23,829 bases of DNA from Betaproteobacteria bacterium (GTDB lineage: Bacteria > Pseudomonadota > Gammaproteobacteria > Burkholderiales > SG8-39), in assembly GCA_029865405.1 (NCBI GenBank), contig JAOUGZ010000006.1, positions 1-23,829 of the forward strand, given 5' to 3'. Of the stretch, positions 9,689 through 23,023 are shown piece after piece. The notes under the pieces are model-generated. The model did no database searches. It saw only the letters and a program-made list of their open reading frames with translations, and was not told where the DNA came from. The translations under genes and the position numbers were made by a program. How positions within the stretch are numbered: the first letter of the stretch is position 1; each line of letters starts with the position of its first letter.

Positions 9689-10318
9689 TCAGAGGCTTTC
9701 ACCCAGCACCGCGAGCGAGCCTTTGCCCGCGCGCAGCACGACGGGCGCCTCGCCGGTGAGATCGATCACCGTGCTCGGCTCGACGCCGCAGGGGCCGCTG
9801 TCGATCACCAGGTCGAGCTGGTGCTCGAGCGCCGCGCGAATCTGCTGCGCGTCGGACAAGGGCAAGGCCGCATCCGGCAGCAGCAGCGTCGCCGAGAGCA
9901 TCGGCTCGCCCATTTCCGCGAGCAGCGCGCGCGCGGCGGCATGCGCCGGCACGCGTACGCCGATGCTCTTGCGGCGCGGGTGCATGAGCCGGCGCGGCAC
10001 TTCGCGCGTGGCGCGCAGGATGAACGTGTAGCTGCCCGGCGTCGCCGCCTTCAGCAGGCGGAATTGCGCGTTGTCGACGAGCGCATAGGCCGCAATCTCG
10101 GACAGATCACGGCACATCAGCGTCAGGTGGTGCTTGTCGTCCATGCCGCGCGCGCGGCGCAGGCGCGCCTGTGCGTCCGCGTCGCCGAGGTGGCAGCCCA
10201 GCGCATAGCAGGAATCCGTCGGGTAGGCGATCAATCCGCCACGGCGCACGATCTCGGCGGCCTGGCGGATGAGCCGCGGCTGCGGATGCGTCGGATGGAT
10301 GGCGAAGTACTGCGCCAC
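9689..10318 (-). CDS. YciO/Sua5-family (YrdC-domain) protein
   Basis: The product is 209 residues with a single YrdC fold: LIRQAAEIVRRGGLIAYPTDSCYALGC, then RARGMDDKHHLTLMC, then a C-terminal GPCGVEPSTVIDL motif. Sua5/TsaC relatives make threonylcarbamoyl-AMP for tRNA t6A. This copy resembles the YciO branch, whose role is less settled, and it lies directly after a PHP phosphatase as yciO follows rnm (yciV) in E. coli. That context favours YciO over the essential TsaC. The start is GTG 10318, nine bases after the PHP gene, without a strong ribosome binding site. Confidence 0.88.
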   Translation of the reverse strand: MAQYFAIHPTHPQPRLIRQAAEIVRRGGLIAYPTDSCYALGCHLGDADAQARLRRARGMDDKHHLTLMCRDLSEIAAYALVDNAQFRLLKAATPGSYTFILRATREVPRRLMHPRRKSIGVRVPAHAAARALLAEMGEPMLSATLLLPDAALPLSDAQQIRAALEHQLDLVIDSGPCGVEPSTVIDLTGEAPVVLRAGKGSLAVLGESL

Positions 10319-10327
10319 GCGCCGCTG

Positions 10328-11158
10328 CTACAGCCCCCACTCGCGCCACACCGGCCGCAGCGCCGGGTCGAGCGGCGGCAGCGTGCCGAATTCCGCGCCC
10401 TCCTCCGGGCCGTGGAAATCCGAGCCGCGCGAGGCGGCGAAATCGTACTGCGTGGCGAGTGCCGCGAAGTGCCGGTACTGGTCCGCGGAGTGGCTGCCGG
10501 TCACCACCTCGAGCGCTTCGCCGCCGGCGGCGCGGAACTCCTGCAGCAGCGCATCCATCGCGCCCGCCGACAGGCCGTAGCGTCCGGGATGCGCGAGCAC
10601 CGCCTGTCCGCGCGCCTGCAGAATCCATTGCACGGCATCGGCGAGCGCTGCCCACTGGTGCGGCACGTAGCCCGGCTTGCCCGGGACCAGGAACTTGCGA
10701 AAGGCGTCGCGCGTGTCGGCGACCGCGCCGATGTCGGCAAGATAGCGGGCGAAGTGCGTGCGACTGACCATGTCCGGATTCTCAGCGCGCTCGATCGCAC
10801 CCTCGTAGGCGCCATCGATGCCGGCTGCGTGCAGATCGCGCGCCATGGCGCGCGCGCGCTCGAGACGGCCGCCACGCACGCGCGCAAGGCCTGCGGCCAG
10901 GTTCTCGTCCCTGGGATCGATGCGCAGCCCGAGGACGTGCACGGTGCTGCCGCGCCAGGTCACCGAGATCTCGACGCCGTCGACGAACTGCATGCCCTCG
11001 TCCAGCGCCGCCGCGCGCGCGTCGTCGAGGCCCGCAAGCTGGTCGTGGTCGGTCAGGGCCCATACTGCGACGCCGGCGCGCGCGGCGCGCCGCGCAACCT
11101 CGGCCGGAGCGAGCGCGCCGTCGGAAACGTTCGAGTGGCAGTGCAGGTCGATATTCAT
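10328..11158 (-). CDS. rnm: PHP-domain phosphatase/5'-3' exoribonuclease (RNase AM-like)
   Basis: The product is 276 residues of the PHP metallo-phosphoesterase fold. The metal-binding set is visible: HCH at residues 6-8 with Asp13 in the first motif, LTDHD near 35-39, VEIS, an AHPGRYG motif and a C-terminal GSDFHGP. It aligns in style with E. coli YciV/RNase AM (formerly TrpH) and with the Chromobacterium 3',5'-nucleoside bisphosphate phosphatase, which trim 5' ends of small RNAs or remove 3'-phosphates from bisphosphates. The neighbouring YciO-like gene supports this. The ATG overlaps the upstream hydrolase stop by four bases (ATGA). Confidence 0.85.
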   Translation of the reverse strand: MNIDLHCHSNVSDGALAPAEVARRAARAGVAVWALTDHDQLAGLDDARAAALDEGMQFVDGVEISVTWRGSTVHVLGLRIDPRDENLAAGLARVRGGRLERARAMARDLHAAGIDGAYEGAIERAENPDMVSRTHFARYLADIGAVADTRDAFRKFLVPGKPGYVPHQWAALADAVQWILQARGQAVLAHPGRYGLSAGAMDALLQEFRAAGGEALEVVTGSHSADQYRHFAALATQYDFAASRGSDFHGPEEGAEFGTLPPLDPALRPVWREWGL

Positions 11159-12027
11159 GGCGCGAACAGGAATTCCTCGAGGAGATGCGCGACCTGCTCA
11201 GGCTGGTCGTGATGCAGCATGTGGCCCGCATTGGACAGCGTAACGTAGCGCAGGTTGCGAAACGACGCGCGGCGCTCGGCGTACTGCGCCGCGTCCAGGC
11301 CGACGCGTTCGAGGCCCTTTGACTCGGCGGCGTCGACCCACAGCACCGGCGCGGTGACCTCGCGCCAGCAGGCGCGTGCCTCTTCGTAGCGATAGAGCAC
11401 CGGGTAGACGATCTTGTGCGCCGGATCGCCGCGCAGCTGCACCCGGCCATCGGGCAGCCCGCGGCCCCAGTGGCGCGCGAGAAAATCCGCGCGTTCGCGT
11501 GTGAGGCGCGGATTGTTGTTCCGCATGCGCTCGGCGAGGGCCGCGAAATCCGCGTACGGCCGGAAGCCCTTGCTATCGCGCAACTCGTCGAGCCAGCGCG
11601 CGTAGCGGCCCGGGGCCTGTTCGGGTCGCGTCACCGACATGCCGAAGCCTTCCAGATTGACCAGCCGCCGCACCCGCGCCGGGCGCACGCCCGCGTAAAG
11701 GCAGGCGACATTGCCGCCGAGGCTGTGGCCGACCAGATCGACCGGCGCCCGTGCCGAGAGGTGGCGCAGCAGCGCGTCCAGATCGGCCAGGTAGTCCGGA
11801 AACCAGTAGCAGTCGGACTTGCCCCAGTCGGTCAGGCCGTAGCCGCGCCAGTCGGGCGCGAAGATCTCCCAGTGCGCGGGCAAGGCATCGACCAGGAACT
11901 GGAAGGAGGCCGAGACGTCCATCCAGCCGTGCAGGAGCACCGCGCGCGGTCCGCCGTCGCCCGCCCAGTGCCGCACGTGGTAGCGCAGGCCGCGCACATC
12001 GAAGTACAGCGATTCGCTCGCCTTCAT
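11155..12027 (-). CDS. Alpha/beta-fold hydrolase, substrate unknown
   Basis: The product is 290 residues with a full alpha/beta hydrolase pattern: oxyanion region LLHGWMDVSASF near 31-42, nucleophile elbow GHSLGG at 100-105 with Ser102, a likely acid in LWVDAAE (Asp232) and catalytic His269 in NAGHMLHHDQP. There is no signal peptide, so it is cytoplasmic. The lid (about 125-200) is rich in Arg and aromatic residues. It overlaps dadA by four bases upstream and the PHP gene by four bases downstream. Neither neighbour identifies a substrate; esterase, thioesterase and epoxide hydrolase remain possible. Confidence 0.88.
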   Translation of the reverse strand: MKASESLYFDVRGLRYHVRHWAGDGGPRAVLLHGWMDVSASFQFLVDALPAHWEIFAPDWRGYGLTDWGKSDCYWFPDYLADLDALLRHLSARAPVDLVGHSLGGNVACLYAGVRPARVRRLVNLEGFGMSVTRPEQAPGRYARWLDELRDSKGFRPYADFAALAERMRNNNPRLTRERADFLARHWGRGLPDGRVQLRGDPAHKIVYPVLYRYEEARACWREVTAPVLWVDAAESKGLERVGLDAAQYAERRASFRNLRYVTLSNAGHMLHHDQPEQVAHLLEEFLFAP

Positions 12028-13271
12028 GCGGGTAGGAAAGCGAAATCGACGTCCGGCCGGCGCCCCGCGACCAGATCCGCGAGCGCGCGGCCGGATCCCG
12101 CGGCCAGCGTCCAGCCGAGCGTGCCGTGACCCGTGTTGAGGTAAAGATTGCCGTAGCGCGTGCGACCGATCACCGGCACGTTGCTCGGCGTTGCCGGCCG
12201 CAGCCCCGCCCAGTACTCGGCGGCGCCGGCGCGCGCCAGCGCGGGAAACAGCTGGCGCAGGCGCGTGACGATGGCCTCGCAGCGCTTTGTGTTGATGCTC
12301 GTGTCGTAGCCGGTCAGCTCCGCGGTGCCGGCGCAGCGCAGGCGTGCGCCGAAGCGCGAGATCACGAGCTTATGCGCTTCGTCGGTGAGGCTGACGGTGG
12401 GCGCATGCGCCGCGACCTCCGGCGCCAGCGTCAGCGTGACCGAGTAGCCCTTGAGCGGGTAGACGGGGATCGCGATGCCCAGCGGTGCGAGCAGCCGTGC
12501 GCTGTAGCTGCCCAGCGAAACGACGAACGCATCGGCCTGCAGCCGCTCGCCGCCTGCGCGCGCGGCGCGCACGCGGCCGCCCTCCGCCTCCAGGGATTCG
12601 ACGACCGTTTCGCGCAGGAACCGCACGCCCCTCTCCTCGGCGAGCTGCGCCAGGCGCACTGTGGCCTGATGCGCGTCGCCGGACTCATCCTGCGGAGAGA
12701 AGACACCGCCAACGACCCGCGCCGCGGACGCGCGCAGCGTGGGCTCGAGGTCATGGCATTGCGCCGCCGACTTGATCTCGCGCGCGATGCCCAGGTCGCG
12801 CATGCTCGCGGCGTGCTTTGCCAAAGCCTCGAATTCGGCCTGCCCGGTGCAAAAGTGCAGGATGCCGCGCGCCACGCGCTCGTACTCGATGCCGGTCGCG
12901 CCGCGCAGCTCGGCGAGGCAGTCGCGGCTGTAGCGCGCCAGTCCCGCGAGCTGCCGCGCATTGCGCTCGAAGCGCCCGGGCAGGCATTCAAGAGCGAAAC
13001 GCAGGGCCCAACGCCACTGCTGCAGGTCGGCTCGGGGCCGGAACAGAAGCGGCGCATCCTCGCGTCCGAGCCAGCGCAGCACGTCGAGAACGGCCGACGG
13101 CTTCGCCCAGGGCTCGGCGTGGCCTGCGGCGATCTGGCCGCCGTTCGCGAACGAGGTTTCCATGCCGGGCTGCGCCTGCCGGTCGACCAGGGTCACTTCG
13201 TGGCCGGCCTCCGTCAGGTACCAGGCACTGGTGACGCCGATCACCCCGGCGCCGAGGACGAGGATTCTCAC
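12024..13271 (-). CDS. dadA: D-amino acid dehydrogenase small subunit-like FAD oxidoreductase
   Basis: The product is 415 residues, near E. coli DadA (432). It opens with the FAD dinucleotide motif GAGVIG at 7-12 and then the DadA-type segment METSFANGGQIAAGHAEPWA. Later GLRPATPSNVPVIGRT and LNTGHGTLGWTLAAGSG complete the family pattern. DadA oxidises D-amino acids (mainly D-alanine) to 2-oxoacids and passes electrons to the respiratory chain at the inner membrane. I chose GTG 13271 (VRILVLGAG), 16 bases after the hexapeptide-repeat gene. No alanine racemase is nearby, so the substrate could differ. Confidence 0.88.
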   Translation of the reverse strand: MRILVLGAGVIGVTSAWYLTEAGHEVTLVDRQAQPGMETSFANGGQIAAGHAEPWAKPSAVLDVLRWLGREDAPLLFRPRADLQQWRWALRFALECLPGRFERNARQLAGLARYSRDCLAELRGATGIEYERVARGILHFCTGQAEFEALAKHAASMRDLGIAREIKSAAQCHDLEPTLRASAARVVGGVFSPQDESGDAHQATVRLAQLAEERGVRFLRETVVESLEAEGGRVRAARAGGERLQADAFVVSLGSYSARLLAPLGIAIPVYPLKGYSVTLTLAPEVAAHAPTVSLTDEAHKLVISRFGARLRCAGTAELTGYDTSINTKRCEAIVTRLRQLFPALARAGAAEYWAGLRPATPSNVPVIGRTRYGNLYLNTGHGTLGWTLAAGSGRALADLVAGRRPDVDFAFLPA

Positions 13272-14366: not shown

Positions 14367-16043
14367 CTAGAAGACCGGCGTCTCTCGGTAGGATCCCCAG
14401 ACCGCCTTCAGCCGCTCGACGATCTCGCCCATCGACGCGCCGGCGCGAACCAGATCGATGGTCACGGGCATGACGTTCTCTCGCTCGTCGCGGGCGACCT
14501 GCACCAGGCGCTCGAGCAGCGCCGCGACCTGGCGTGCGTCACGCTCCCGGCGCACCCGCCTCAGCCGCTCGATCTGGCGCTGCGCGGTCGAGGGATCGTA
14601 GGCATGCGTCGCAATGTTCACCGACGCCTCGGGTTCGACGAACTTGTTGACGCCGAGGACCACCTTCTCGCCCTTCGCTTTTTTCAGCGCAGTCTCGTAA
14701 GCGAAGTCGGCGATGCGCTGCTGGAACCAGCCTTCCTCGATCAATTTGATCGTGCCGCCCCGCCGGTCGACCTCCTCTACGACCTCGAATATCGCGCGCT
14801 CCATCTGCGTTGTGAGGTGCTCGATGTAGTAGGAACCGCCGAGCGGATCGATCACGTTCGCGACATTCGTCTCGTCCGCGATCACCTGCTGCGTGCGCAG
14901 CGCGATCTTCATCGCCTCCTCGGTCGGGATGGTGAAGGCCTCGTCCATGCCGTTCGTGTGCAGGCTTTGCGTGCCGCCCAGGACAGCGGCGAGCCCCTGC
15001 AGCGTGGTGCGAACGATGTTGACCATGTACTGCGGCTTGGTCAGCGTCGCGGCGGCCGTCTGCGTGTGGAAACGCAGCCGCATGGAATCGGGGTGCTTGG
15101 CGCCGAAGCGCTCCTTCATGATCTTAGCGTAGGCCCGGCGCGCCGCGCGGAACTTGGCGACCTCCTCGAAGAAGTCGCCTTGCGAGACGAAGTAGAAGGC
15201 GAGGCGCGGCGCGAACTCGTCGACCGGCAGCCCGGTCCGGGTCACCTCCTCCACGTAGGTGATGAGATTGCACAGCGGGAACGCCACTTCGTCGAGCGGC
15301 GAGGACCCGGCCTCGGAGATGTGGTAGCCGGAGATGTTGATCGGGTTGTAGCGTCGCATGTTGCGCGCGCAGTAGGTGATGCAGTCGCGCACGATGCGCA
15401 CCGAAGGACGGATGGGAAACGTCCATTCCTTCTGCGCCATGTACTCCTTGAGGATGTCGGCCTGGATCGTGCCGGAGAGCTTGTTCAGGTCGAGGCCGCG
15501 CCGCTGTGCCACGGCGATATACATGGCGAGCAGGATCCAGGCCGACGGATTGATCGTCATCGACACCGAGATGTTCTCCAGGTCGATGCCGTCGAAGAGC
15601 AGATCCATGTCCGCCAGCGTGTCGATTGCGACGCCCTCGCGCCCCACCTCGCCCTCGCTCATCGGATGATCGGAGTCGTATCCCATGAGGGTCGGCATGT
15701 CGAAATCGGTGGACAGTCCCGTCTGGCCCTGAGCGACGAGGTACTTGAAGCGCGCGTTGGTGTCCTCAGCCGTGCCGAAGCCCGCGATCTGGCGCATCGT
15801 CCACAGCCGGCCGCGGTACATGGTCGGATAGGCGCCGCGCGTAAAGGGGTACTGGCCGGGCAGGCCGATGTCCTCCGGCGGTGTTTCGGCCAGGTCGAGC
15901 GGCGTATACACCCGCTTCACGGGGAAGCCCGTGCCGCTGCGGAACTCCGCCTTGCGCTCGGGTGCCCTGTTCAGGAAGGCAGCAAGCTCGTTCCGCTCCC
16001 AGCGCTCGAATTGCCGTCGAAATTCCTCGAGTTCCGTGCTCAT
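14367..16043 (-). CDS. hcmA: 2-Hydroxyisobutyryl-CoA mutase large subunit, HcmA-type
   Basis: This is the substrate-binding subunit of a B12-dependent acyl-CoA mutase, 558 residues, without its own cobalamin domain. It follows the methylmalonyl-CoA mutase fold with YPTMY, GLSTDFDMPT, SVSMTIN and ISGYH (Tyr240-His241). The substrate-determining positions differ from methylmalonyl-CoA mutase: Ile86 replaces Tyr89, Asp113 replaces Ala116 and Gln204 replaces Arg207 (P. shermanii numbering). Ile/Asp/Gln is the set of HcmA from Aquincola tertiaricarbonis (Ile90, Asp117, Gln208), with a constant offset of four. Loss of Arg rules out a free-carboxylate substrate, and the Asp is the residue that contacts the hydroxyl group. 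The expected reaction is 2-hydroxyisobutyryl-CoA to (S)-3-hydroxybutyryl-CoA. The ATG overlaps the chaperone stop by four bases. Confidence 0.9.
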   Translation of the reverse strand: MSTELEEFRRQFERWERNELAAFLNRAPERKAEFRSGTGFPVKRVYTPLDLAETPPEDIGLPGQYPFTRGAYPTMYRGRLWTMRQIAGFGTAEDTNARFKYLVAQGQTGLSTDFDMPTLMGYDSDHPMSEGEVGREGVAIDTLADMDLLFDGIDLENISVSMTINPSAWILLAMYIAVAQRRGLDLNKLSGTIQADILKEYMAQKEWTFPIRPSVRIVRDCITYCARNMRRYNPINISGYHISEAGSSPLDEVAFPLCNLITYVEEVTRTGLPVDEFAPRLAFYFVSQGDFFEEVAKFRAARRAYAKIMKERFGAKHPDSMRLRFHTQTAAATLTKPQYMVNIVRTTLQGLAAVLGGTQSLHTNGMDEAFTIPTEEAMKIALRTQQVIADETNVANVIDPLGGSYYIEHLTTQMERAIFEVVEEVDRRGGTIKLIEEGWFQQRIADFAYETALKKAKGEKVVLGVNKFVEPEASVNIATHAYDPSTAQRQIERLRRVRRERDARQVAALLERLVQVARDERENVMPVTIDLVRAGASMGEIVERLKAVWGSYRETPVF

Positions 16044-17011
16044 CGGATGATCTCCGTCCCTATGCGCGCCACGAGCCGCCTTGCCGCCGCCTGCGGCGAG
16101 ACCGCCCCCCGTGCCAGCTGTGCGATCAAGTCTGCCATGCGCCCCTGCCGATGCTGCTCGAATTCCTGGTGCAGCAGCTGTTCGGCCGCCTTCAGCATCC
16201 TGCGTTCCTGGATTGCCTCGCGCCGTGCGGCGTACTCGCCGCTCGCCACGAGGTACTCGCGGTGCGCTTCGATGGCCACCAGCAGCTCGGCAATGCCCTC
16301 TTCCCGCGCGGACGAAGTCTTGATGACCGGCACGGCGCGTTTCGCGCCGCTTGCCGGCAGCGCGAGGGCGAGCATGCCCTTGAGCTCTCCGACCGTCTTG
16401 TCCGCCTCCGGCTTGTCGCCCTTGCTGACCGCGTGCACGTCCGCTATCTCGAGAATTCCCGCCTTGATCGCCTGAATGTCGTCCCCGAGCCCCGGCGCCG
16501 ACACCACGACGGTGGTATGCGCCGCGCGTACGATATCCACCTCGTCCTGGCCTACGCCGACCGTCTCGATGAAGATCAGGTCGTATCCCGCGGCGTCGAG
16601 AATGTCCACGGACTCGAGCGTCCCGTGGGCGAGCCCGCCCAAGGCGCCGTGCGTCGCCATGCTGCGCACGAAAACCGAAGGATGGCCCGCAACCTCACCC
16701 ATGCGGATCCGATCGCCGAGAATCGAGCCTCCGGAAAACGGGCTTGACGGGTCGATCGCCACGACACCGATCTTACGCCCGCCCGCCAGCGCCGCCGCCA
16801 CGAGCCTTGCCACCAGCGTGGACTTACCGCTTCCCGGTACGCCGGTGATGCCGACGACGTGCGCGCGACCGGTGCGCCCGTAAAGAAGATCCAGGGCCTC
16901 GCGTGCCTCCGCGCTTCCGGATTCGGCGCGCGAGAGCATGCGCGCGACCGCGCGCCTGTCGCCTTGGCTGACGCGCTCGGCGAGTTCCAGCGAAGGCAGC
17001 GAGGGTTGCAT
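16040..17011 (-). CDS. meaH: MeaB-type G-protein chaperone for the mutase
   Basis: MeaB-family GTPases gate adenosylcobalamin loading and protect B12-dependent mutases from inactivation. The product is 323 residues, matching MeaB (about 327). The Walker A GVPGSGKST is at 57-65, followed by IDPSSPFSGGSILGDRIRM and the family switch motif ETVGVGQDEVDI at 149-160. The base-recognition motif reads SKGD at 196-199 in place of NKxD. A C-terminal helical dimerisation region with RREAIQERR closes the protein. It lies between the ligase (2-base gap) and hcmA (4-base overlap). MeaH is the name used for the paralogue that serves 2-hydroxyisobutyryl-CoA mutase; I apply it by context. Confidence 0.92.
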   Translation of the reverse strand: MQPSLPSLELAERVSQGDRRAVARMLSRAESGSAEAREALDLLYGRTGRAHVVGITGVPGSGKSTLVARLVAAALAGGRKIGVVAIDPSSPFSGGSILGDRIRMGEVAGHPSVFVRSMATHGALGGLAHGTLESVDILDAAGYDLIFIETVGVGQDEVDIVRAAHTTVVVSAPGLGDDIQAIKAGILEIADVHAVSKGDKPEADKTVGELKGMLALALPASGAKRAVPVIKTSSAREEGIAELLVAIEAHREYLVASGEYAARREAIQERRMLKAAEQLLHQEFEQHRQGRMADLIAQLARGAVSPQAAARRLVARIGTEIIR

Positions 17012-17013
17012 GC

Positions 17014-18441
17014 CTAAGGCCCCAGTCTTTCGCGCACCTCGCGGAAGACCGCGCGATCGTCGATCACGCGACGCGCCTTGAAGTCGGTGCGAGGAAAGGT
17101 TCCCGGCGGCACGATCTCCACGAGCGCCCGCAGGCCGAGCACCTTCTGCAGTCGTGAGCGGGCTTCCAGGCGCATCGCTGCCGGCGCGTCGGCGCCGCGC
17201 TCGAATAGCCCCGGCGCCGCTTCGATGCGCACCAGCAGCTCGTCCATCGCGCTATCGCGCGTGACGACGATGCGGTGCTCGCCGCCGTAGGCGGCAAGCT
17301 GGTTGACCACTGCGTCGATCTCGCTCGGATAGACGTTCTCGCCGCGGATGGTGATCATGTCGTCGATGCGGCCGAAAATGCCGTTCGGCAGCCGCGGATA
17401 GGTGCGCCCGCAGGGATTGGGCCCGTCCACCCACAGCGTCAGGTCGCCCGACAGCAGCCGGATCATCGGCTGCGAGGTGCGCTCGAGGTGCGTGTACACC
17501 GGGGTTCCGCGCTCGCCGTAGCGCACGCGGCGGAAGCCTTTCGGGTCGCATACCTCGGTATACACGACGTCCTGCCAGCACAGCATGCCCTGCTCGGTCT
17601 GCTCGCTTCCGGCCACGTTCATGAACGGCGTCATCTCCGCCATCGAGCCGCAATCGATCACGCGGGCCTTGTAGGTCGCGCGAATCTTGTCGCGTATTTC
17701 CGGAACCGAGGCGCCCGGCTCGCCGGAGAAGAACATCAGCTTCAGGCCGAAGTCGCCGGGCTCGTAGCCCTCGGTGCGCGCCACCTCGGCGAGGTGGAGC
17801 GCGAATGACGGCGTGCCGTAGAAGGCCTTGGGCCGAACGTTCGCGAGCCACATGGCCGCCCGCGCCGTCATCCCCGCGGCGCCCGCGCCAAATGGAAACG
17901 ACTTGCAGCGCAGCCTTTCCGCGCCGGCCAGCGTGCCCCACGAGCCCATGTAGAGACTGAAGATCGCCGCGATGAACACGGTGTCGCCGGGACGAATGCC
18001 CATCGCCCACATGATCCGCGCGTGCGCGTTGGCAACCGCCTGCCAATCCGAGCGCCCGATGGCGAACGCCGTCGGCTTGCCGGTGGTTCCCGAGGTCCCG
18101 TGGACGTGGTGGATTTCTGCTTCGGGGACGCAGACGTAATCGCCGAACATCGGCGCGCGCGCCTGCGACTCGCGCAGATCGGCCTTGGTGATGACCGGTA
18201 CCCTGTCCTCGAAGTCCTCGAGGCTTTTCAGCTGCCCGGGGTGGAAGCCGGCCGCGTCCCATTTCCGGCGGTAAAAAGGCGCGTGCTCGTAGGCGTAGCG
18301 CGTCACCTCCTGCAGTCGCGCGAGGATGGCCGCTTCGCGCTCGGCGACGGGCATCGTCTCGCGGCGCGGGAACCAGTAGCGCGCGCCCGGCTCGGGAAAA
18401 TAATCCGGATCGTAGGACGGCGGAAACGACCAGCATTCCAC
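17014..18441 (-). CDS. hcl: PaaK-like acyl-CoA ligase, probable 2-hydroxyisobutyrate-CoA ligase
   Basis: This is an AMP-forming ligase of the phenylacetate-CoA ligase/coenzyme F390 synthetase type, 475 residues. The P-loop-like motif is HGTSGTTGKP (about 114-123). An A5-like GSMAEMTPF, the A7 SGDLT, the A8 GRIDDMITIRGENVYP and a C-terminal PRTDFKARRV with the likely catalytic Lys455 follow. Its place between the two mutase subunits matches the cluster known from Methylibium and Aquincola, where such a ligase activates 2-hydroxyisobutyrate. The sequence alone does not prove that substrate; another short branched hydroxy acid is possible. The start is GTG 18441, 11 bases after hcmB. A different-frame ATG nearby gives no ligase sequence. 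Confidence 0.82.
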   Translation of the reverse strand: MECWSFPPSYDPDYFPEPGARYWFPRRETMPVAEREAAILARLQEVTRYAYEHAPFYRRKWDAAGFHPGQLKSLEDFEDRVPVITKADLRESQARAPMFGDYVCVPEAEIHHVHGTSGTTGKPTAFAIGRSDWQAVANAHARIMWAMGIRPGDTVFIAAIFSLYMGSWGTLAGAERLRCKSFPFGAGAAGMTARAAMWLANVRPKAFYGTPSFALHLAEVARTEGYEPGDFGLKLMFFSGEPGASVPEIRDKIRATYKARVIDCGSMAEMTPFMNVAGSEQTEQGMLCWQDVVYTEVCDPKGFRRVRYGERGTPVYTHLERTSQPMIRLLSGDLTLWVDGPNPCGRTYPRLPNGIFGRIDDMITIRGENVYPSEIDAVVNQLAAYGGEHRIVVTRDSAMDELLVRIEAAPGLFERGADAPAAMRLEARSRLQKVLGLRALVEIVPPGTFPRTDFKARRVIDDRAVFREVRERLGP

Positions 18442-18452
18442 GGCCGTCGCGC

Positions 18453-18860
18453 CTACCGGGGGCCGCGCTCGGCCACGAGACGGCGGATGGTCGCCACGAT
18501 CTTCTCCGGTGGCGTGTCCTGCAGCAGGATTTCCCTTACCCCCATCGCCTTGAGCTGCGCGGCATCCTCCTCGGGCATGACCCCGCCCCCGATGACGATT
18601 ATGTCTTCCGCGTCGCGGTCCTTCAGGAGCTTGAGCAGCCGCGGCAGCAAGGTCATGTGCGCGCCCGAGAGCAGGCTCACGCCGAGCACATCCACGTCCT
18701 CCTCGATCGCCGCTTCGACGATCTCCTCGGGCGTGCGATGCAAGCCGGTGTAGATCACGTCCATGCCCGCATCGCGCAGGGTGCGGGCGACGATCTTCAC
18801 GCCGCGGTCGTGGCCGTCGAGGCCGACCTTGGCGACGATGACGCGAATGCGCTCGCTCAC
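18453..18860 (-). CDS. hcmB: B12-binding small subunit of the acyl-CoA mutase, HcmB-type
   Basis: The 135-residue product is a stand-alone cobalamin-binding domain. The base-off/His-on motif DGHDRG is at 15-20, with His17 expected to coordinate cobalt. SLLSGAH and the GGG turn near residue 91 complete the nucleotide-tail pocket. Its size equals that of HcmB, while methylmalonyl-CoA mutases usually carry this domain fused to the large subunit. With HcmA, which lacks the domain, it makes a heteromeric holoenzyme. The start is GTG 18860 (VSERIRVIVAKVG), ten bases after the dehydrogenase gene. Confidence 0.92.
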   Translation of the reverse strand: MSERIRVIVAKVGLDGHDRGVKIVARTLRDAGMDVIYTGLHRTPEEIVEAAIEEDVDVLGVSLLSGAHMTLLPRLLKLLKDRDAEDIIVIGGGVMPEEDAAQLKAMGVREILLQDTPPEKIVATIRRLVAERGPR

Positions 18861-18870
18861 GGGCGCGCGC

Positions 18871-19632
18871 TCACTTCGGCGCCATGCGGATCGCGCCGTC
18901 CAGGCGGATGGTCTCGCCGTTCAGCATCTCGTTCTCGATGATGGCGCGCGCAAGCTGCGCGTACTCCGCGGGCCTGCCCAGGCGCGACGGGAACGGCACC
19001 TGCTTGCCGAGCGAGTCCTGCGCTTCCTTGGGCAGCCCCATCAGCATCGGCGTCTCGAAGATGCCCGGCGCGATGGTGCAGACGCGGATGCCGTTGCGCG
19101 AAAGATCGCGCGCGACGGGCAGCGTCATGCCGACGACGCCACCCTTCGATGCGGAATAGGCCGCCTGCCCGATCTGGCCGTCGTAGGCCGCGACCGACGC
19201 GGTGTTGATGATCACACCGCGCTCGCCCGCCGCGTTGGGGCCCGCCTTGGCCATGGCGTCGGCGGCGACGCGGATCATGTTGAAGGTGCCGATCAGGTTG
19301 ACGGTGATCACGCGCGCGAAGCGCCCGAGATCGTGCGGCGCCTCCTTGCCGAGGGTGCGCTCGGCGAGCGCGATGCCGGCGCAGTTCACCAGCACCTGCA
19401 GGCCGCCGTACTCCTTGACGGCGCGCGCCACCGCCGCCTTGGCGTCGGCCTCCGCGGTGACGTCGCATTTCACGAAGTGCCCGCCCAGCTCCTTGGCCAG
19501 CTTTTCGCCGGCGTCGGCCTGCATGTCGGCGATCACGACCTTGCCGCCGTTCTCCGCCGCCATGCGCGCCGTGGCGGCGCCGAGCCCAGATGCGCCGCCG
19601 GTAACCAGAAACACGCTGTTCTTGATAAGCAT
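18871..19632 (-). CDS. HSD10-like short-chain 3-hydroxyacyl-CoA dehydrogenase
   Basis: This is a classical SDR of 253 residues. The nucleotide motif TGGASGLG is at 11-18 and Asp36 ends the second strand, which favours NAD+. NCAG lies at 83-86, Asn112, Ser146, Tyr159 and Lys163 make the catalytic set, and the insertion [19 protein letters not shown] is typical of type 2 (HSD17B10-like) 3-hydroxyacyl-CoA dehydrogenases. These oxidise (S)-3-hydroxyacyl-CoA, so it fits the product of the mutase encoded next door and would give acetoacetyl-CoA. It is the first gene of the run, with GAGG about five bases before ATG 19632 and a -10 hexamer upstream. Activity on 2-methyl-3-hydroxybutyryl-CoA is also possible. 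Confidence 0.88.
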
Positions 19633-19667: not shown

Positions 19668-19681
19668 TCAGGCACTTGCCG

Positions 19682-22600
19682 ATGCTGCAGCTGCGCTTCG
19701 ACCTTTCTTTCGAGGATCTCTATAGCCGCGACGGCCTCGTGCGGCTCGACGCCGCGTTCCTGGCGTTTCTCGCGGAAGCCGACGCCGCGCTGCGCGCCCG
19801 GCTCGAGGCTGCGCGGGCGGCGCCGCCGCCCGCGCGCGAGGAATCCGAGCTGCTCATCGCGCTCGCGCCCCATGTCGAGGATTTCATCGTGCGCCTGTTC
19901 GGCATCGAGGCCGAAGCGCAGGCGCTCGCCGCACGGCACCACGAGCTCGCCCCGCTCTACAGCGTGAAGCGGCTGTTCGTGCAGCGGCGCGCGCTGCACA
20001 AGGTGAAAGCCGGGGAGGCGCGGCCCGACGGCTATCGCTTCACCACCGAACTCGACTTCGCGCGCCAGGTCACCGAGTGGCAGAAGGACGAGGCGGCGCA
20101 CGCGGCGAAGCTGGAAGGCGCGGCGCGCTATGCGGCATGGGCGGCGACGACGCCCGAAGGCAAGGCGAAGCACAAGGCGGGCGTGCTCTTCAAGGCGCCG
20201 CACAAGCTCGACTTCATGCGGCTGGTGCCGGCGCAGCCGGAGACCCGCCTTCGCCAGGGCTTTGCGCTTACCGACCGCGGCACCGACCTCGCCGGTGCGC
20301 TCGACCAGGCGAACTACTGCATCTGGTGCCACGAGCAGGGCAAGGACTCCTGCTCCAAGGGCCTGACGGAGAAGGCGCCCGCCGCCGGATTCAGGAAGTC
20401 CGCGTTCGGCGTAGAGCTCGCCGGCTGTCCGCTGGAGGAGAAGATCTCGGAGTTCCACCTCGTCAAGACGCGCGGCCAGCCGCTCGGCGCGCTCGCCATG
20501 ATCGCCGTGGACAACCCGCTGGTCGCCGCCACCGGCCACCGCATCTGCAACGACTGCATGAAGGCCTGCATCTACCAGAAACAGGACCCCGTCGACATCC
20601 CGCAGGCCGAGACGCGCACCCTCAAGGACGTGCTCGAGCTGCCGTGGGGTTTCGAGGTCTACTCGCTGCTCACGCGCTGGAACCCGCTCGATCTGCGCCG
20701 GCCCTATCCCGGGGCGCCGAGCGGCCGGCGCGTGCTGGTGGTCGGCCTCGGCCCGGCCGGGTTCTCGATCGCCCACCACCTGATGAACGACGGCCACACG
20801 GTCGTCGGCGTCGACGGCCTGAAGATCGAGCCGCTCGATGCGTCGCTCTCGGGCGTCGACGCGCTCGGCCGGCGCGTGCCGTTCCGCCCGGTGCGCGACG
20901 TGCGGGAGCTCTACGAGCCGCTCGAGAGCCGCGTCATGGCCGGCTTCGGCGGCGTGGCGGAATACGGCATCACGGTGCGCTGGGACAAGAACTTCCTCAA
21001 GGTGATCCGCCTGCTGCTCGAGCGGCGCCGCCAGTTCGCGATGTTCGGCGGCGTGCGCTTCGGCGGCACGCTGACCATCGACGAGGCGTTCGCCGACGGC
21101 TTCGACCACATTGCTCTGTGCGCCGGCGCCGGGCGGCCCACGGTGCTGGAGACGATCCCGAATGGCTTTGCGCGCGGCGTACGCGCGGCGTCCGACTTCC
21201 TCATGGCGCTGCAGCTCACCGGCGCCGCAAAGCACGAGTCGATCGCCAACCTGCAAATCCGGCTGCCGATCGTGGTGATCGGCGGCGGGCTCACCGCCAT
21301 CGACACGGCGACCGAGTCGCTCGCCTACTACGCGGTACAGGTGGAGAAATTCCTCGCGCGCTGGGAGAGGCTCGAGACGAAGCCCGAATGGAGCGCCGAG
21401 GAGCGCGAGATCGCCGGGGAGTTCATCGCGCACGCGCGCGCCTTGCGCAAGGCCAGGCCCGAGGAGCGGCTGGCGCTGCTCACGTCCTGGGGCGGCTCGA
21501 CCATCGCCTATCGCCGCCGCATGGTCGACAGTCCCTCCTACACCCTGAACCACGAGGAGGTCGCCAAGGCGCTCGAAGAGGGCATCGTGTTCTCGGAAGG
21601 CCTGACGCCGCAGAGAATCGAGGTCGACGCCTACGGCCACGCGAAAACCGTCGTATTCCAGGACGGAATCAGGCTGCCCGCCCGCTCGGTGCTGATCGCG
21701 GCGGGCACCCAGCCCAACACGGTGCTCGCGCGCGAGGAAGGCGTGAGCCTGGCGCTGGACGGCAAGTATTTTCTCGCCTGCGACGAGCGCGGCGCACCGG
21801 TCAAGCCGCAGCGTCACACGTCGAAACCCGAGTTGCCGGAAGTGCTGCTGCACCGCTATGCCGACGGCCGCTTCATGAGCTTCTTCGGCGACCTGCATCC
21901 GTCGTACTTCGGCAACGTGGTGAAGGCGATGGGCAGCGCCAAGCAGGGCTATCCGGTCGTGAGCCGGGTTCTGGCGCAGCGCCGACCCGCCTCGGCACTG
22001 GCGGACGCAGAGTTCCTGGGCCGGCTCAATCGCGACTTGCGCGCCGTGGTGCACGAGGTGCGGCGCCTGACGCCCGCCATCGTCGAAGTGGTGCTGCGCG
22101 CACCGATCGCGGCGCGGCGCTTCCGCCCCGGGCAGTTCTACCGCATGCAGAACTTCGAGGCGCTGGCGTTGAAGGTGCCGGGCACGACTTTGGCGATGGA
22201 AGGCTTGGCTCTTACCGGTGCCTGGGTGGATCACGACAAAGGTCTGATCTCGGTGATCGCGCTCGAAATGGGCGGCTCGGCCGACTTGCTTGCCTACCTG
22301 CGTCCCGGCGAACCCGTGGTGCTGATGGGGCCGACCGGTACGCCTACCGAGATACCGCGCGGCGAGACCGTGGTGCTTGCGGGCGGCGGCCTGGGCAACG
22401 CAGTCCTGTTCTCGATCGGGCGCGCGCTGCGCGCCGCGAGCTCAAAGGTCATCTATTTCGCCGGCTACAGGCACCTCGGCGACCGCTACCGGATCGAAGA
22501 TATCGAGGCGGCCTCGGATGTCGTCGTCTGGTGCTGCGACGAATCTCCCGGGTTCAGCGCACGGCGCCCCCAGGACCGCGCGTTCGTCGGCAATATCGTC

Positions 22601-23023
22601 CAGGCGATGCACGCCTACGCCTCGGGCGCGCTCGATGCGCAGCCGATTGCCTTTTCGGCGGCCGATCGCATCATCGCCATCGGCTCGGACCGGATGATGG
22701 CCGCGGTGGCGCAGGCACGGCACGGGGTGCTGCAGCCCTTTCTCAGGGACACCCACGTCGCCATCGGCTCGATCAACAGCCCCATGCAGTGCATGATGAA
22801 GGAGATCTGCGCGCAGTGCCTGCAGCCGCACGTCGATCCGCGCACCGGCAAGACCACCTACGTGTTTTCGTGCTTCAACCAGGACCAGCCCCTCGATGAA
22901 GTGGACTTCGGCGCCCTCGCGCAGCGCCTGGCGCAGAACAGCGTGCAGGAGAAGCTCACCGCGCAGTGGATCGATCGCTGCCTGAAGCTGCTGCCGCCCC
23001 CTGCCGAGCGCAAAGCGGCCTAG
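19682..23023 (+). CDS. Large NfnB/NfnA-like fused iron-sulfur flavoprotein oxidoreductase
   Basis: The product is 1113 residues from ATG 19682 (a TTG at 19676 is also possible). Residues 1-200 are mostly helical, charged and unrecognised. Residues 205-310 form a GltD/NfnB-like cluster domain with Cys213, 216, 224, 249 (before Pro) and 289, 292, 296: seven Cys, with Thr where GltD has another Cys. A flavin-type GLGPAG at 355-360 and a second dinucleotide motif [10 protein letters not shown] at 534-543 follow, with a charged insertion after the latter. From about 785 a PyrK/NfnA-like reductase begins: RPGQF at 815-819, GGGLGNA, and Cys1037, 1043, 1046, 1064 for a likely [2Fe-2S] cluster. The parts resemble both subunits of electron-bifurcating Nfn joined in one chain. 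Substrate and acceptor are unknown, and bifurcation is not shown. Confidence 0.85.

Follow-up and report, generated by a model that had tools for sequence, protein, structure and literature searches.

The reaction sequence from 2-hydroxyisobutyrate through 2-hydroxyisobutyryl-CoA to (S)-3-hydroxybutyryl-CoA is already known, and its enzymes are of known kind: a CoA ligase (HCL), a B12-dependent mutase with large and small subunits (HcmAB) and a chaperone (MeaH). In many bacteria hcl is clustered with meaH and the genes of the mutase, as a rule together with a GntR regulator gene; most strains carrying such a cluster appear to be from pristine environments, and the natural source of the substrate is not yet identified (PMC7176365). 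Here we analyze an hcm cluster in a 23,829-nucleotide stretch of DNA (the window; contig JAOUGZ010000006.1, assembly GCA_029865405.1, Betaproteobacteria bacterium). An initial annotation had placed a chromosomal cluster of this type at 14367-18860, and the coordinates and order of its four minus-strand open reading frames (ORFs) are confirmed: hcmB-hcl-meaH-hcmA, all intact, with gaps of 11, 2 and −4 bp. Judging from sequence comparison, this cassette very probably encodes the HcmAB-type 2-hydroxyisobutyrate pathway.

In the pathway that we propose, HCL would join 2-hydroxyisobutyrate to CoA, HcmA would bind the resulting 2-hydroxyisobutyryl-CoA, HcmB would carry adenosylcobalamin, and a radical rearrangement would yield (S)-3-hydroxybutyryl-CoA; MeaH would load and protect the B12 cofactor. 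A type II 3-hydroxyacyl-CoA dehydrogenase (HADH) of the short-chain dehydrogenase/reductase (SDR) type, whose gene lies 10 bp upstream of hcmB, would oxidize (S)-3-hydroxybutyryl-CoA to acetoacetyl-CoA.

Window HcmA is identical to the crystallized Aquincola HcmA (4r3u) at 410 of 549 aligned positions, and scores 954 bits to chain 4r3u_A versus 430 to human methylmalonyl-CoA mutase (MUT). The active-site residues named in the initial annotation, Ile86, Asp113 and Gln204, are present, and align at a constant offset with positions 101 (I), 128 (D) and 219 (Q) of the 4r3u chain, which we take to be Ile90, Asp117 and Gln208 in the published HcmA numbering. We tallied this triad in the tblastn matches from all collected loci, including redundant loci and excluding matches of <300 columns. 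Among matches of at least 65% identity it was I-D-Q in 80 of 81 and L-D-Q in one; the 73 matches below 65% comprised 43 Y-A-R, 27 F-A-Q, one V-D-Q, one L-I-N and one incomplete. The best 120 listed HcmA homologues keep Ile86 in 119 cases (one has Phe) and both Asp113 and Gln204 in all 120. On these alignments the triad pattern is not chance. V-D-Q is the triad of a Sinorhizobium mutase (L004; L numbers denote loci and G numbers genomes), and L-I-N that of a divergent mutase homologue on a long tree branch (L174:1477-3153, in G428). Stand-alone F-A-Q (isobutyryl-type) mutases, ~49-54% identical to HcmA, were seen at L005, L038, L040, L043 and elsewhere, the loci including some from haloarchaea, Thorarchaeota and Gemmatimonadota. 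At L145-L149 the hcm cluster has a further F-A-Q mutase of PF01642 close by, and the L146 copy scores above the IcmF cut-off.

The initial annotation had staked its reading on the large subunit falling within the HcmA clade, and in a tree of 72 rows (70 hand-picked loci, the window and 4r3u; quick method) it does. The 40 rows of at least 65% identity form one side of a branch with a Shimodaira-Hasegawa-like approximate likelihood ratio (SH-aLRT) support of 92, or 99 when L004 is included. It does not, however, belong to the Aquincola/PM1 subclade: window HcmA sits in a separate subclade of seven rows (support 100), comprising the window, G467, G481, G428 and the metagenome-assembled genomes L006, L007 and L036, while Aquincola HcmA groups with Methylibium petroleiphilum PM1 and Piscinibacter elsewhere in the clade. 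The tree program flagged several long branches, none of them within the window's subclade.

The separate B12-domain gene and the MeaB-type chaperone between the subunits, both noted initially, are borne out by structure and family matches (Table 1). The third claim, a PaaK-like ligase, was right as to a ligase and too broad as a label: the protein scores 805 bits to 6hdw, a 2-hydroxyisobutyryl-CoA synthetase, and 222 to phenylacetate-CoA ligase, the next solved relative, so that "PaaK-like" understates the specificity of the match. Clade placement, the I/D/Q triad, a separate D-x-H-x-x-G subunit and an operon with meaH and hcl are all found together here, as in an HcmAB-type system. The best matches of the SDR are solved type II HADHs, a family that acts on (S)-3-hydroxyacyl-CoA, the configuration made by HcmAB.

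A methylmalonyl- or isobutyryl-CoA mutase of the ordinary kind whose residues had drifted would belong to the same Pfam family, and methylmalonyl-CoA mutase is indeed the NCBI name for the relatives, as had been predicted of automatic annotation (some JGI names are the exception, reading 2-hydroxyisobutanoyl-CoA mutase large subunit). This explanation is scarcely credible, however, given that window HcmA lies inside the HcmA clade, reaches 572 of the 876 bits of the methylmalonyl-CoA mutase equivalog cut-off and 333 of the 1500 bits for IcmF, and has neither the Tyr/Ala/Arg triad of the former nor the Phe/Ala/Gln triad and fused architecture of the latter. Moreover, six of the 12 hcm-bearing genomes searched contain a separate Y-A-R mutase of 720-860 aa (L154-L159). 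When ten of the tallied mutases were compared with NCBIfam, the Y-A-R proteins of L154 and L158 passed the methylmalonyl-CoA mutase cut-off, the F-A-Q proteins of L146 and L175 passed that of IcmF, and six passed neither. Somewhat easier to entertain, and still unlikely, is the idea that the true substrate is another short tertiary 2-hydroxyacyl-CoA, for instance 2-hydroxy-2-methylbutyryl-CoA derived from a branched precursor of five carbons, and that 2-hydroxyisobutyryl-CoA is a side substrate. An actinobacterial lyase of the same ester family accepts that compound (PMC7176365, PMC8760513), and many strains with mutase and HCL have no identified natural source of 2-hydroxyisobutyrate (PMC7176365); yet both HCL and HcmA of the window are close to enzymes characterized on 2-hydroxyisobutyrate, and the triad is identical. 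Less probable than a different substrate is a pathway reversed in the cell, turning 3-hydroxybutyryl-CoA into 2-hydroxyisobutyryl-CoA as, for example, an acyl donor. The reaction is reversible and lysine 2-hydroxyisobutyrylation has been reported also in prokaryotes (PMC7176365), but a dedicated free-acid ligase gene, found at 32 of 33 hcm loci with full flanks (defined below), suits breakdown. Three loci (L148, L149 and L150, one of them with full flanks) lack an hcl match, so the CoA ester there may arise inside metabolism.

Several observations count against the 2-hydroxyisobutyrate pathway as we have drawn it. The SDR gene is a core gene that occurs without hcm, so its adjacency is no proof of a pathway role; hcm and SDR lie on different contigs in G001, G481 and G473; two hcm-bearing genomes of the family (G467 and G442) have no SDR match at the cut-off; and no source of 2-hydroxyisobutyrate is visible in the window. 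That the natural source of the substrate is an open question, as the initial annotation put it, had already been stated in print (PMC7176365).

Table 1. Genes of the hcm locus and its neighbors in the window
Feature	Position	Strand	Basis or remark
hcmA, 2-hydroxyisobutyryl-CoA mutase large (substrate-binding) subunit, 558 aa	14367..16043	-	structure match, triad, tree
meaH, MeaB-type GTPase chaperone for mutase, 323 aa	16040..17011	-	Pfam MeaB 285 bits; TIGR00750 314 bits, above cut-off
hcl, 2-hydroxyisobutyrate-CoA ligase, 475 aa	17014..18441	-	805 bits to 6hdw
hcmB, B12-binding small subunit, 135 aa	18453..18860	-	4r3u_C 197 bits; TIGR00640 160 bits, above cut-off; DGHDRG (D-x-H-x-x-G)
Tandem (two-domain) gamma-carbonic-anhydrase-like protein, 357 aa	13288..14361	-	alignments with solved gamma-carbonic anhydrases; 5 bp past hcmA
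Type II 3-hydroxyacyl-CoA dehydrogenase (HSD17B10-like SDR), first gene of unit	18871..19632	-	4xgn 369 bits; 1u7t 286 bits
dadA-like FAD amino-acid dehydrogenase, downstream core neighbor	12024..13271	-	NF001933 495 bits, above cut-off; GTG start 13271
Alpha/beta hydrolase (abh), core neighbor	11155..12027	-	Pfam scan; synteny
PHP-domain gene	10328..11158	-	beyond alpha/beta hydrolase
Sua5	9689..10318	-	after PHP-domain gene
trpS-like gene			after Sua5
PRK06567-family large oxidoreductase, 1115 aa, divergent upstream core neighbor	19676..23023	+	NF005128 749 bits, below 1072 cut-off

The whole minus-strand run from SDR to Sua5 is uninterrupted (Table 1), with intergenic gaps of −4 to 16 bp, the widest being that between the tandem gamma-carbonic anhydrase (gamma-CA) gene and dadA. 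The tandem gamma-CA gene and the adjoining dehydrogenase (SDR) gene lie outside the 14367-18860 interval of the initial annotation. Past the trpS-like gene come further core genes: scpA, a pseudouridine synthase gene, rimP, nusA, infB, rbfA and truB. On the other side, the PRK06567-family gene is 43 bp (by ORF ends) from the SDR gene, which it adjoins in many relatives' regions as well; relatives of this oxidoreductase were found in 61 of 200 genomes from the order of G010. G+C content is 0.677 in the hcm stretch and 0.69-0.71 in its neighbors, so composition gives little sign of recent import. In agreement with the initial annotation, which noted no mobile element or tert-butanol oxygenase, there is no transposase, integrase or oxygenase among the Pfam-scanned ORFs of the window, a scan that left aside some small ORFs.

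We compared gene content at 50 hcm loci besides the window, and took counts from the 33 in which hcmA is flanked by at least 4 kb on either side (full flanks); the other 17 have <4 kb on one side. Related loci were counted separately (L016, L073 and L002 are near-copies), and because hcm loci share descent the counts are not independent draws. The 33 full-flank loci had hcmB in 33, hcl in 32, meaH in 32, a double gamma-CA gene in 24 (called at 230 or more aligned residues; one more locus had only a single-domain gamma-CA), GntR in 21, 2-hydroxyacyl-CoA lyase in 11 (15 of all 50), adenosyltransferase in six and HADH-type SDR in two. Among the loci of other mutases used as controls (48, of which 34 have full flanks; matches counted from 40% coverage of the query), the gamma-CA, hcl, lyase and SDR queries gave no matches, while those for hcmB, meaH and GntR matched 17, 14 and one, respectively. 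An upstream GntR regulator is usual and not universal in hcm loci, and so does not define them; in the 23.8 kb of the window, queries for GntR, adenosyltransferase, 2-hydroxyacyl-CoA lyase and HBD gave no match. We found HcmA itself in 11 of the 399 genomes sampled for the order of G021 and, at E ≤ 1e-230, in seven of 98 genomes of the family of G001 (centre genome included in both).

The tandem gamma-CA-like protein is a further companion of these genes. Both of its halves align with solved gamma-CAs, which are of the left-handed beta-helix hexapeptide family. In gamma-CAs one subunit supplies two of the metal ligands and the neighboring subunit supplies the third. In the window protein the N half has the Arg-x-Asp pair (44, 46) and ligand residues His65 and His88, with Arg83 replacing the third ligand His; the C half has Asn233, Gln235, Asp236 and the third ligand His259, with Tyr241 and Ser264 replacing the other two. 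Neither domain holds three ligand histidines, as a canonical gamma-CA domain would, and the protein scores below the family cut-offs (gamma-CA 189 of 250, PaaY 94 of 320 and CaiE 88 of 305 bits). The split trio is invariant: His65, His88 and His259 occur in 33 of 33 proteins encoded beside hcmA (window included; proteins of <290 aa, single-domain ones among them, near-duplicates and the run-on ORF of L020 were dropped) and in 120 of 120 listed database homologues, the best-scoring 120 of 284. His is rare at the remaining ligand positions in the same two sets: position 83, none of 33 and three of 120; position 241, two of 33 (L089, L090) and two of 120; position 264, five of 33 (L012, L089, L090, L091, L133) and none of 120. 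The split set alone is thus found in 28 of the 33 rows, the window among them, while L089 and L090 have the full C-half set and three more rows have two histidines there.

Because the three invariant histidines are divided between the halves, and because gamma-CAs share ligands between subunits, this pattern suggests a composite site between the halves, the complementary site having decayed in most, not all, rows. The five rows that keep further histidines slightly lower our confidence in the broader proposal made below. The L089 and L090 proteins, encoded beside hcm in G169 and G237, also keep the two N-half ligands, and perhaps represent an earlier stage of the ligand split. As to function we can offer a guess: the protein would be an accessory metallo-enzyme, perhaps a hydrolase that clears unwanted CoA esters; its relative PaaY is a thioesterase. 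An AlphaFold model (A2, 39 rows) had a mean predicted local distance difference test score (pLDDT) of 71.3 (the other four models, 58-64), and Foldseek with this low-confidence model gave no match at E ≤ 0.001 and 188 at E ≤ 10, with no gamma-CA among the 50 listed; we base no conclusion on the model and rely on the sequence alignments. We found no statement linking a gamma-CA with the 2-hydroxyisobutyrate pathway among the titles listed by searches of the open literature, nor in the accessible passages of PMC7176365, PMC7888143, PMC8760513 and PMC11599936.

A second companion, 2-hydroxyacyl-CoA lyase, is encoded in or near the hcm cluster at L002, L008-L010, L012, L014-L016, L019, L020, L023, L024, L073, L143 and L151. 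The lyase of the PM1 plasmid (L002:11541-13301) scores 742 bits to NF058623 (cut-off 600) and 551 bits to 7pt1. Searching 21 hcm-bearing genomes whole, we found a lyase above the NF058623 cut-off in eight, as against none of 14 control genomes; weaker lyase-family matches were present in all 21 and all 14. For the pathway of the window itself we considered a role of the lyase and rejected it, as the window gave no match. In two relatives (L228, L229) a lyase gene (947 and 942 bits, cut-off 600) adjoins the SDR gene, at the place in the block that hcm occupies in the window. That slot also contains hydantoinase A/B-like or caprolactamase-like gene pairs with a CoA-ligase-like gene, and at L229 a GMC-type oxidoreductase gene; a hydantoinase A/B-like pair likewise lies beside SDR and hcm in G010 (L022). 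The hcm-lyase cluster of L010 is on a metagenome-assembled contig titled Bordetella parapertussis, a name that may simply stem from binning. With both a lyase and a mutase, acetone and formyl-CoA could be converted to 3-hydroxybutyryl-CoA. In acetone-degrading sulfate reducers a thiamine-dependent enzyme, a mutase and a dehydrogenase occur together, the first step being a proposal (PMC7888143). For a lyase gene in the PM1 hcm cluster we found no statement in the accessible passages of the four PMC articles or in a listing from the open literature.

The initial annotation described the cluster as beside core genes. That stands, and yet the operon looks inserted into a block that is mostly hcm-free in sampled relatives. 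The SDR gene occurs in 67 of 98 genomes of the family of G001 (E ≤ 1e-90), and we sampled the regions of 20 of these plus L141 and L142; hcm is absent from all 22 SDR regions, where some of the 20 sampled contigs end just beyond the SDR and the SDR gene of L226 was hidden by a display filter. The clearest hcm-free block, at L219, reads trpS-Sua5-PHP-abh-dadA-SDR-PRK06567, and in many other hcm-free regions that gap holds a single-domain gamma-CA gene in the opposite orientation. G001 and G481, whose HcmA is 87% and 85% identical to that of the window, have the block without hcm, and hcm on another contig. The hcm operon has other neighbors elsewhere: an infA-like gene and a PDZ protease gene at L134, a molybdopterin oxidoreductase gene at L135, and cox15 and an acetyl-CoA-synthetase-like gene at L006. 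Two members of the family have hcm close to this SDR: in G010 it lies between SDR and abh, has its own GntR and encodes an HcmA from another subclade, and in G428 it lies across the SDR from that position, separated from the SDR by two ORFs.

From this synteny the operon appears to be an insertion into a conserved core block, repeated loss being the less economical alternative, and the cassette apparently changes its chromosomal site, although we saw no mobile element in the window. We dropped two other histories: that the cluster is ancestral to this locus, given the relatives' regions without hcm, and that the SDR was recruited together with the cassette, given its status as a core gene. The SDR is probably a resident outside the inserted cassette. 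Inserted between this dehydrogenase gene and dadA, and with no GntR of its own, the cassette would probably be transcribed with the housekeeping genes.

A broader proposal, about which we are somewhat more doubtful than convinced, has two separate parts. The tandem protein would be a dedicated and hitherto undescribed enzyme of 2-hydroxyisobutyryl-CoA metabolism, a duplicated and fused gamma-CA left with one cross-half metal site per chain after most lineages lost the complementary ligands, and acting as a thioesterase or as another hydrolase, related to CoA esters or to CO2. The other part is that the slot next to the type II HADH gene would take alternative cassettes for branched 2-hydroxyacyl-CoA, a B12 mutase or a thiamine-dependent lyase according to strain. 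Three additions are worth following, namely the tandem gamma-CA protein, the history of the insertion and the pairing of lyase with mutase in related clusters: the first is a testable extra part of the pathway, and the lyase a testable link to the thiamine route via acetone and formyl-CoA. A 2-hydroxyisobutyrate cassette best known from plasmid-bearing degraders of fuel oxygenates is thus also present among core chromosomal genes in other bacteria, and this suggests that a natural substrate exists.

Among described systems, RcmAB of Kyrpidia tusciae, with RcmAB-like proteins in Desulfococcus biacutus, is distant from HcmAB, the Kyrpidia enzyme preferring (R)-3-hydroxybutyryl-CoA (PMC7176365); the Sinorhizobium V-D-Q mutase of L004 may be of this type. 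Gamma-CA, PaaY and CaiE share the hexapeptide left-handed beta-helix family with the tandem protein, which differs in having two domains per chain and, in the window, a ligand set split between them. The cluster of PM1, also the type of Aquincola tertiaricarbonis L108, is like that of the window in its split subunits, triad and specific ligase and, in PM1, in the order hcmB-hcl-meaH-hcmA, so that the gene set named in the initial annotation for the PM1 megaplasmid is indeed found there. In PM1, however, it is on a 599 kb plasmid and includes GntR, two cobalamin adenosyltransferase genes, the 2-hydroxyacyl-CoA lyase gene and an HBD gene, whereas the window cluster is in a core chromosome and its HcmA belongs to another subclade. 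In Xanthobacter autotrophicus Py2 and Agrobacterium deltaense EL101, as in the window, hcmB-hcl-meaH-hcmA is followed by a double gamma-CA gene; their clusters are plasmid-borne, with GntR and adenosyltransferase genes and an HcmA 74% identical to that of the window.

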